From: Acidobacteriota bacterium
Lineage (GTDB): Bacteria; Acidobacteriota; Vicinamibacteria; Vicinamibacterales; 2-12-FULL-66-21
Assembly: GCA_013813355.1 (NCBI GenBank)
Contig: JACCRT010000046.1
Span: 1-51,403 of the forward strand
DNA: 51,403 nucleotides
Direction of reading: 5' to 3'
The notes beneath the pieces are model-generated. The model made no database searches, was not told where the DNA came from, and worked only from the letters and a program-made list of their open reading frames with translations. Positions 37,324 to 39,091 of this stretch are shown piece after piece; the first letter of the stretch is position 1, and every line of letters starts with the position of its first letter. A program made the position numbers and the translations under genes.

Positions 37324-37914
37324 ATGAGACACCAGCGCAGATACGGGATGGCATTCGCGGCACTCGCCGTGCTGCTGGCCGCTGCCTGCGATCGCCCTCC
37401 TGCCAGCCCGCATCAGGCGCTCACGGCTGGCGCCGAGCCGCTTCGCTCTCACTTCAACCGGGACGTCGGTTATACGCGTATCGTCCTGCTCGCCGCGCCG
37501 ACGTGAGGGCAGTGTCTGCTCGGGGTCGCCGAGATTCAGCACAACGTCCTGACAAAAGAAGACAGCACCCGGCTCAAGGCGTATTCCGTCTGGGTCCCGA
37601 TGGTCCGCGGCATGGAGCGGCATGTGCCACAGGCTTCTCGCGAGCTGCCGGATGCGCGCGCCGCCCATTACTGGGATGGCGACGGCCAGTTGATGACCGG
37701 CTACCGGGAGACGCTCGGGCTCTCGGAGGACGCCTGGGACATCTTCCTGGTGTACGGTCCGGACACCCGCTGGGACGGGAGCCTGCCGCCGGAGCCGCTT
37801 TACTGGGCCCACCAGCTCGGAACGCGCGACAAGCCCCGCGTGCAGGGGCCCTACCTCGACGCAGCTACGTTCCTCGGTAAGACCCGAGACGCGCTGGCGC
37901 TGCGACAGCCTTGA
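37324..37914 (+). CDS. candidate selenocysteine-containing thioredoxin-like lipoprotein (in-frame TGA at 37504)
   Basis: Two ORFs, 37324-37506 and 37600-37914, lie in the same frame, and the bases between them are open apart from the single TGA at 37504-37506. Read through, they give 196 residues. A basic n-region, hydrophobic core and lipobox LAAAC (Cys22) come first, then NRDVGYTRIVLLAAPT, U61, GQC64 LLGVAEIQ, a thioredoxin-fold strand-loop-helix in which U61-G-Q-C64 replaces a CxxC motif. Continuous family-like sequence follows: AYSVWVPMVRG, RAAHYWDGDGQLM, AWDIFLVYGPDTRWDG, PPEPLYWAHQLG. A SECIS-like hairpin begins five bases after the TGA. It would be a membrane-anchored redox protein. 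The alternative is a single Cys-to-stop mutation. The end overlaps the convergent kinase gene by 50 bp. Confidence 0.7.
37504..37542 (+). promoter_or_regulatory. TGA codon plus SECIS-like hairpin
   Basis: After the TGA, GTG (37512-37514), CTG (37516-37518) and CTCGG (37519-37523) pair with CCGAG (37529-37533), CAG (37537-37539) and CAC (37540-37542). That is eleven base pairs, with a one-base bulge on the left and ATT on the right. The apical loop is GGTCG, starting with GG, and lies 17 bases after the TGA. Both spacing and loop fit bacterial SECIS elements recognised by SelB. Confidence 0.65.
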
Positions 37915-39091
37915 GGTGCTTGGGCGCCGTTTCGCGGCCGTAAGGCGGTTGGTCATCCGGGTCCGTGGTGTGGCGGTGCAGCGGCAGCCGAACGATGAAT
38001 CGCGCGCCACGCCCCACGCCATCGCTGTCGGCTTCAATGTGACCCCGGTGCAGCTCGACGAGCTGCCGGACGATGGCGAGGCCGAGCCCGAGGCCGCCGT
38101 GCCGCCGTGTCGAACCTGTGTCGGCCTGCCTGAACCGTTCGAATACCTGCGGCAGGAAGTCGGGCGCGATGCCCACGCCCGTGTCCGAGACGACCACCTC
38201 CGCGAAGCCGCCATCGCGGCGGACGATCAGGCTGGCGCGCCCACCGCTCGGCGTGAACTTGATCGCGTTCGCCAGCAGGTTGAAGACGATCTGCTGCAAG
38301 CGCTCCGGGTCGCCCCAGACGGTCAGGGACTCGGGCGGCGCCTCGACCTGCAGCTCGACACCCTTCTCACTGGCTTCGTCGCGGACAGACGCCGCGGCCG
38401 CGACGGTCAGCGGTACGAGGTCCACTTTGGACGGATCGAGGTGCAGTCGCCCGGTGAGGCTCTGGGCGACGTCGAGCAGATCGCCGACGAGCTGAGCCTG
38501 TACTCGGGCATTGCGCTGGACGACCTCGAGGGCATGAGTGGTGCGCGGCGCGCTGAGGTTGCCGGCGCGAAGGAGCGTCACCCATCCGAGGATGGCGTTC
38601 AGCGGCGTCCGTAACTCGTGCGAGACGATCGCGAGGAACTCGTCCTTGAGCCGGTTCGCCTCTTCGGCCTCGGCCCGAGCCGCGAGCAGTGTCTGCTCGA
38701 TGTGCCGCCGTTCGGCGATCTCGGCCTGGGCAGCCGCCATACTCTGCTCGAGCTGGCGGCGATCGGACTTCATCCGATCGAGGATGACTGCCGCGCCCCC
38801 GATGAACCCGGCGAACAGCGTCAGGCGAACGGCCTCTTCCCACGTCACCGGCAACATCCCGTCGTTGCCAGGGGAGTCGAAGTAGAGACGGGTGCCGAGG
38901 CCGGCGGCGCCTGTCAGCAGGGCAGGGCCGGTGCCGGCCACCCAGGCGGCGATCACCGCAGCGAACATGAACAGCGCAAACGGCGCGGTCGTTTCCCAGA
39001 GCGGCGCCATGAGGCTGCGAAGCAGGAGTGTAGCGGCTATCACGAGGACAGCGAAGCCATACCGCTCTGCAGGCGTGGTCAGGCGCTTCAT
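37865..39091 (-). CDS. membrane sensor histidine kinase (DUF4118-type membrane domain)
   Basis: 408 residues. Residues 11-105 contain four hydrophobic segments resembling the KdpD-like DUF4118 module (AVLVIAATLLLRSLM, FALFMFAAVIAAWVAGTG, LTLFAGFIGGAAVIL). A coiled coil (about 108-150) leads into HisKA with the phospho-His H158 in IVSHELRTPLNAILGW. The ATPase domain has the N-box QIVFNLLANAIKFTP, G1 VVSDTGVGIAPD and G2 GLGLGLAIVRQL. No receiver or regulator is adjacent, so it is an orphan kinase. A -10 box TAAGAT sits nine bases upstream of the ATG. The last 50 bases overlap the candidate selenoprotein gene. Confidence 0.88.
   Translation of the reverse strand: MKRLTTPAERYGFAVLVIAATLLLRSLMAPLWETTAPFALFMFAAVIAAWVAGTGPALLTGAAGLGTRLYFDSPGNDGMLPVTWEEAVRLTLFAGFIGGAAVILDRMKSDRRQLEQSMAAAQAEIAERRHIEQTLLAARAEAEEANRLKDEFLAIVSHELRTPLNAILGWVTLLRAGNLSAPRTTHALEVVQRNARVQAQLVGDLLDVAQSLTGRLHLDPSKVDLVPLTVAAAASVRDEASEKGVELQVEAPPESLTVWGDPERLQQIVFNLLANAIKFTPSGGRASLIVRRDGGFAEVVVSDTGVGIAPDFLPQVFERFRQADTGSTRRHGGLGLGLAIVRQLVELHRGHIEADSDGVGRGARFIVRLPLHRHTTDPDDQPPYGRETAPKHLKAVAAPARLGSYRGT

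Follow-up and report, generated by a model that had tools for sequence, protein, structure and literature searches.

The analysed stretch of DNA (the window, 51,403 nucleotides from an Acidobacteriota bacterium) contains a gene belonging to a protein family, here called the UxxC family, in which an in-frame TGA occupies the first position of a UxxC motif. We are nearly certain that this is a selenoprotein family, a judgement made from sequence, with selenium incorporation itself inferred. The best overall explanation, which we consider likely, is that the gene encodes a selenoprotein whose periplasm-facing Sec/Cys pair captures a soft metal, most probably Hg(II), for the transporter MerT. The following features were assigned to the window gene.

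37324 to 37914, plus strand: whole predicted selenoprotein gene, with ATG at 37324, Sec-TGA at 37504 and terminal TGA at 37912-37914 (196 aa).
37333 to 37389, plus strand: N-terminal hydrophobic helix (residues 4-21 in the AF2 model), ending in the non-canonical lipobox AAA-Cys22.
37504 to 37506, plus strand: TGA codon, putatively read as selenocysteine 61 (TGA in 41 of 52 phylum-wide matches, Cys in the others).
37512 to 37542, plus strand: SECIS hairpin of 11 pairs in three blocks (fold of 37504-37545, -13.1 kcal/mol).
37513 to 37515, plus strand: Cys64, second residue of the UxxC pair, invariant in alignments A1 and A5.
37524 to 37528, plus strand: apical loop of the SECIS hairpin, GGUCG, starting 17 nt after the TGA.
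37735 to 37740, plus strand: Trp138-Asp139, a conserved pair just before strand 140-144 (conservation and AF2 model).

The sequence-only reading had interpreted this region as one gene split by an in-frame TGA and carrying U61-G-Q-C64. This frame was confirmed, with a single internal TGA at 37504-37506 of 37324-37914 (MRHQ...IVLLAAPT-U-GQC...RQP, 196 residues), and homologues have TGA or Cys at the same site. In a search of 100 related genomes, 11 further homologous places were detected in nine other genomes, each with exactly one in-frame TGA and always at [S/A]PT-U-x-x-C; the nearest homologue of the window protein is 50% identical over residues 14-192. A profile (A1) was built from the homologous places in relatives and searched against 396 genomes of the phylum, which yielded 52 matches in 47 genomes and 38 genera. 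It had been proposed to ask whether homologues carry Cys or TGA at position 61: the 41 TGA forms are complemented by 11 forms without TGA, and all of the latter have Cys at the Sec position (SPTCxxC; SPSC/SPNC in loci L055 and L052). The Sec61 column is invariant in the A5 alignment. When the window protein alone was used as a whole-protein query against the named genomes, no match was obtained, because the family is too diverged for a single query; the search with relatives did recover homologues. A tblastn search of plasmids gave no match.

The breadth of the family was apparent from a scan of 84,980 named species genomes with the DNA pattern L-L-S-P-T-TGA-x-x-C-x-x-G, which returned at least 117 loci with about 119 sites, about 115 of them family members by profile. 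As the pattern required TGA, the Sec share of this set is uninformative and its value lies in the range of phyla: Acidobacteriota, Planctomycetota, Chloroflexota, Thermomicrobiota, Actinomycetota, Armatimonadota, Latescibacterota, Gemmatimonadota, Nitrospinota, Rokuibacteriota, Zixiibacteriota, Sumerlaeota and Verrucomicrobiota. Many of these records are MAGs, and phyla represented by a single record are uncertain. The Sec form is now known from 152 distinct TGA-bearing sequences across many phyla, Cys was the sole alternative seen, and a quick tree requires at least seven changes between Sec and Cys.

A hairpin of eleven pairs in three blocks, with its loop 17 nt past the TGA, had also been described for the window gene, and folding of 37504-37545 reproduced this geometry. 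Taken alone, the hairpin is unremarkable (z = -1.05 when dinucleotides are shuffled; p = 0.22 when codons are shuffled with the protein preserved). Since a single hairpin did not exceed chance, the claim was tested on the relatives, with a null in which synonymous codons were permuted within each gene so that protein and codon use were kept. Among the 152 Sec-form sequences, a hairpin with its loop centre +21 nt from the T of the TGA reached a mean score of 14.9 versus 8.2 in the null (Z = 27), and 60% of the sequences were individually at p <= 0.05. Second among the 33 loop positions came the adjacent +27 (Z = 7.4), the loop site of a subgroup. No hairpin signal was detected in ten Cys forms with the same codon-permutation test. 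The paired positions also covary, with 138 double-changed cells versus 50 after shuffling, and a covariation of 0.51 versus 0.09-0.16 when the pairing was slid. In the W subgroup the stem lies 5 nt later with 94% pairing, and covariation was seen in two subgroups. In the alignment, replacement of CGG (Arg) by CAG (Gln) in the 5' arm coincides with a silent TCC-to-TCT change in the 3' arm. Plain folding energy compared with codon shuffles gave a small SECIS signal only; detection required a test specific for hairpins whose loop lies at a fixed position. Thus, the proposed SECIS element stands as a conserved and covarying feature of the family, and not on the window copy by itself.

SelA was found over the cut-off in 48 of 53 family-bearing genomes, and in 39 of the 43 TGA-bearing genomes examined (the window's own genome excluded). 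Three of the remaining four (G001, G197 and G229) have SelB over the cut-off, and the fourth (G340) has part of SelB at 146 bits; G197 and G229 additionally possess tRNA-Sec at 69 bits. In the Cys-only genome G395 (99% complete, 2 contigs), neither SelA nor SelB was detected over the cut-off and no tRNA-Sec-like match exceeded 45 bits. Genes resembling tRNA-Sec at more than 56 bits occur in approximately three quarters of the sampled relatives, therefore co-occurrence alone is modest evidence. The sequence-only reading had further stated that the organism must encode SelA, SelB, SelC and SelD. SelA, SelB, SelD and tRNA-Sec were not recovered from the window's own assembly, which is only 57% complete; in 43 other TGA-bearing genomes SelA or SelB is present, at least in part. 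A selD-like match in the own genome was rejected, since judged from its sequence it reads as ThiL, thiamine-monophosphate kinase, and tRNA-Sec matches at 29-33 bits were taken as ordinary tRNAs. The failure to recover this machinery is the weakest point for the window's organism. The central claim of a new UxxC selenoprotein with a SECIS element is nonetheless supported by the homologues, the covarying hairpin and the machinery of the relatives.

Two explanations would deny the window gene a functional selenocysteine. That the TGA is a plain stop, a sequencing error, a strain mutation of a Cys gene, or a Trp or Cys codon of another code can be virtually dismissed, and for the family as a whole it counts as refuted: nothing beyond the stop itself speaks for it, and it would have to account for TGA at the same site in 152 distinct sequences of many phyla, for Cys as the sole alternative and for a SECIS signal restricted to TGA forms. 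Pseudogene, sequencing error and alternative code were rejected. It is also conceivable, and in our opinion very unlikely, that the organism has lost its Sec machinery and that the window copy is decaying or truncated. The missing selA, selB, selD and tRNA-Sec and the lack of significance of the window hairpin alone would agree with such a loss. However, we estimate that three unlinked Sec loci would all be missed by chance in about 8% of cases in an assembly of this completeness, the frame and invariant residues are intact on both sides of the TGA, and in relatives of the same family tRNA-Sec and SelA are present.

In thioredoxins, a cis-proline is normally located at the start of the strand that, by order, corresponds to residues 140-144 of the window protein. 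The AF2 model (75 sequences; pLDDT 87.9, pTM 0.80) predicts a thioredoxin fold with a beta-alpha-beta core and the redox pair at the N-terminus of helix 1, and the best structural matches in the PDB are ResA, DsbE/DsbF and DipZ-type thioredoxins at 10-14% identity. No conserved Pro was present at positions 134-141, so the cis-proline that thioredoxins proper carry before the third core strand is not seen here; Trp138 was found in 73 of 75 members and Asp139 in all 75. The placement of Trp138-Asp139 at the cis-Pro site follows from strand order and topology, without superposition, and the profile comparison with thioredoxins aligned the active-site half only. The cis-proline may prevent metal binding to CxxC motifs (PMC2757866). 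Among the Pfam and NCBIfam models, including those available for catalogued Sec families, none named the family at significance when 75 members were scanned; Redoxin and AhpC-TSA each matched one of the 75, weakly. A PDB sequence search returned no relative, and the Sec protein itself could not be identified as a MerP-type HMA domain with GMTCxxC.

Helix 4-21 of the window protein is predicted from the model to be a secretion signal or membrane anchor, and 120 of 150 family members have a hydrophobic N-terminal segment. The earlier assignment as a lipoprotein is weak for the window copy, which does not match the canonical lipobox [LVI][ASTVI][GAS]C (AAAC, Ala at -3), and it does not describe the family, as a lipobox-like motif was seen in only 10 of the 150. 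The redox role proposed with it was revised towards likely metal (mercury) binding beside MerT.

In classical mer operons, the periplasmic binding of mercury falls to MerP, and those MerT and MerC proteins that have been characterised import mercury. Genes of the MerT/MerC type are located on the same strand in 68 family loci, with MerT directly upstream in 60; of the 150 loci for which sufficient upstream DNA was available, 67 have MerT or MerC, versus none of 19 control loci. Three of four MerT-type proteins scanned scored over the Pfam gathering score (PF02411), the fourth having weaker NCBIfam matches, and the MerC neighbour passed the gathering score of Pfam MerC. Upstream on the same strand, these genes recur together with MerR-type regulators (41 loci), CopZ-type 2Fe-2S chaperones (15 loci) and DF family (seleno)proteins (23 loci, counted by a non-iterated profile search). 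A recognisable MerP-type domain is absent from 61 of the 68 MerT/MerC-linked loci; the other seven carry an HMA/MerP-type motif, sometimes fused to the Sec protein. The tree requires at least 18 changes in mer linkage, which thus does not reflect one inherited cluster. In the isolate Acidobacteriaceae KBS 96, MerR, DF, MerT and the UxxC gene form a tight run of overlapping or touching genes.

The window gene stands solo: the gene upstream is DinB-like, the one downstream encodes a histidine kinase, and both lie on the minus strand. No mer operon surrounds it, and the recurrent linkage to merR, merT or merC does not extend to this copy. MerT was not found in the window's own assembly, in a search that matched no control genome either. 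At its 3' end (37865-37914) the window gene shares 50 bases with the histidine kinase ORF, which runs convergently on the minus strand (37865-39091).

In this explanation, SelB and tRNA-Sec, guided by the hairpin, decode the UGA of codon 61 as selenocysteine, and the product would be a secreted or membrane-anchored protein of thioredoxin fold, with its U61/C64 selenolate/thiol pair facing the periplasm. It is inferred that the conserved Trp-Asp stands in for the cis-proline by which metal is normally kept off CxxC, so that the Sec-Cys pair could capture an ion of a soft metal, Hg(II) being the likeliest. The metal might then be passed to the vicinal cysteines of the inner-membrane transporter MerT, a step inferred from the job of MerP. 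Solo copies such as that of the window may act as scavengers or serve a transporter encoded elsewhere. A role in soft-metal (Hg) handling, which is inferred, appears somewhat more probable than not for the mer-linked members; for the window's own copy it is tentative, and falls slightly short of an even chance. An even chance is given to the farthest-reaching version of this reading, a widespread selenium-dependent mercury binder: a thioredoxin fold that has given up its cis-proline and whose Sec-Cys pair takes over from MerP as the periplasmic partner of MerT, in Acidobacteriota of soils as in more than a dozen further phyla, putting the very strong selenium-mercury bond to biological use.

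Metal specificity is unreadable from sequence, and two other functions have to be weighed. The protein could be a selenoprotein that works in the periplasm as a conventional TlpA/ResA-like oxidoreductase for thiols and disulfides (or for peroxides); it would protect or reduce proteins and, within mer operons, repair metal-damaged thiols or reduce partners. We regard this as unlikely. The thioredoxin-like fold with UxxC is compatible with it, as are CcdA-type genes in three loci, a thioredoxin neighbour in Planctomycetota and the lack of a mer-type neighbour in about half of the family loci. It is at odds, however, with the missing conserved cis-Pro, with the 60 loci in which MerT adjoins and MerP-type domains are mostly lacking, and with fusions to metal-binding HMA domains. 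That the selenoprotein serves a different soft metal or metalloid (Cu, Cd, Ag or As), and not mercury, seems still less likely. Cu, Zn, Cd and Pb likewise have MerR-type regulators, and the MerR-family sensor that was scanned scored alike with the MerR, CadR/PbrR, ZntR and CueR models, none over the cut-off; the CopZ-type chaperones would fit such a function as well. Against this, MerT and MerC import mercury where characterised, and their neighbours here match the Pfam models over the gathering score. Mercury capture for MerT remains our preferred reading.

Sec has precedents in mercury systems, namely in MerP-type proteins, MerT/CopZ fusions, SaoL and HgcA. Like MerP (TIGR02052 / HMA PF00403), the UxxC protein combines a periplasm-facing soft-metal CxxC/UxxC pair beside MerT with MerR-type control and, by inference, hands metal over to MerT; unlike MerP it has a thioredoxin-like fold instead of HMA and Sec at the first position. 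With the TlpA/ResA/DsbE thioredoxins (PDB 1su9, 2l5o, 3ios) it shares the fold and the redox pair at the start of helix 1, but it differs in the Trp-Asp in the cis-Pro region, the low identity and the lack of a significant Pfam or NCBIfam match. SaoT (NF040730), GOS_C (NF045500), TsoX and the HUIPC-motif proteins likewise have a UxxC motif, a partly Trx-like nature and a bacterial SECIS, yet their models are not among the families matched by the 75 members. Sec in heavy-metal transport is further known from NF045683 (MerT/CopZ fusion-like heavy-metal selenoprotein) and NF041115 (UxxU metal-binding (seleno)protein), which in contrast have HMA/MerT folds and match the MerT neighbours only, not the UxxC protein.

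The comparison with known families covered reviews and tools to May 2026 (PMC13188914, PMC12013277, PMC2398784, PMC1794560). The 2026 catalogue lists many UxxC families (PMC13188914), and the present family is not in it as described, as far as entries with NCBIfam models could be compared. It is thus apparently undescribed, with the limitation that entries without models (e.g., redoxin PF08534 and thiol-disulfide isomerase-like cd02966) were not compared, and that the groundwater candidates mentioned in PMC13188914 were likewise outside direct comparison. A large selenoprotein family without a Pfam or NCBIfam model is thereby added, present in about 12% of the sampled Acidobacteriota genomes and in over a dozen phyla. 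Standard annotation splits or drops such genes, and a family found mostly in the Sec form can also escape prediction pipelines with a filter on Cys homologues. If the mercury role is true, bacteria exploit the exceptional affinity of selenium for mercury for detoxification in soils, and the protein is testable in isolates such as Acidobacteriaceae KBS 96 and Kouleothrix aurantiaca.

Several loci deviate from the common architecture. UxxU forms with TGA at both active-site positions (SPTUPKU) were seen in L075 and L082. In L094 (2066 and 3470) and L168 (complement), from Phycisphaerae and relatives, a single reading frame contains two Sec domains (468 and 250 codons apart), each with its own TGA, which would make the product a double selenoprotein. 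The SPTU/CxxC domain is fused with an HMA metal-binding domain, at either end, in L038, L041 and L051. The Sec gene of L014 is seemingly frameshifted after about residue 130, the rest fitting the profile in another frame. In L156 the same strand encodes, two genes upstream, a MerA-like or glutathione-reductase-like flavoprotein. In L145 (Thermomicrobiales), a CcdA-like gene lies directly upstream of the Sec gene, as in L130, and the Sec domain is extended at the C-terminus by about 300 residues that resemble beta-propeller repeats.
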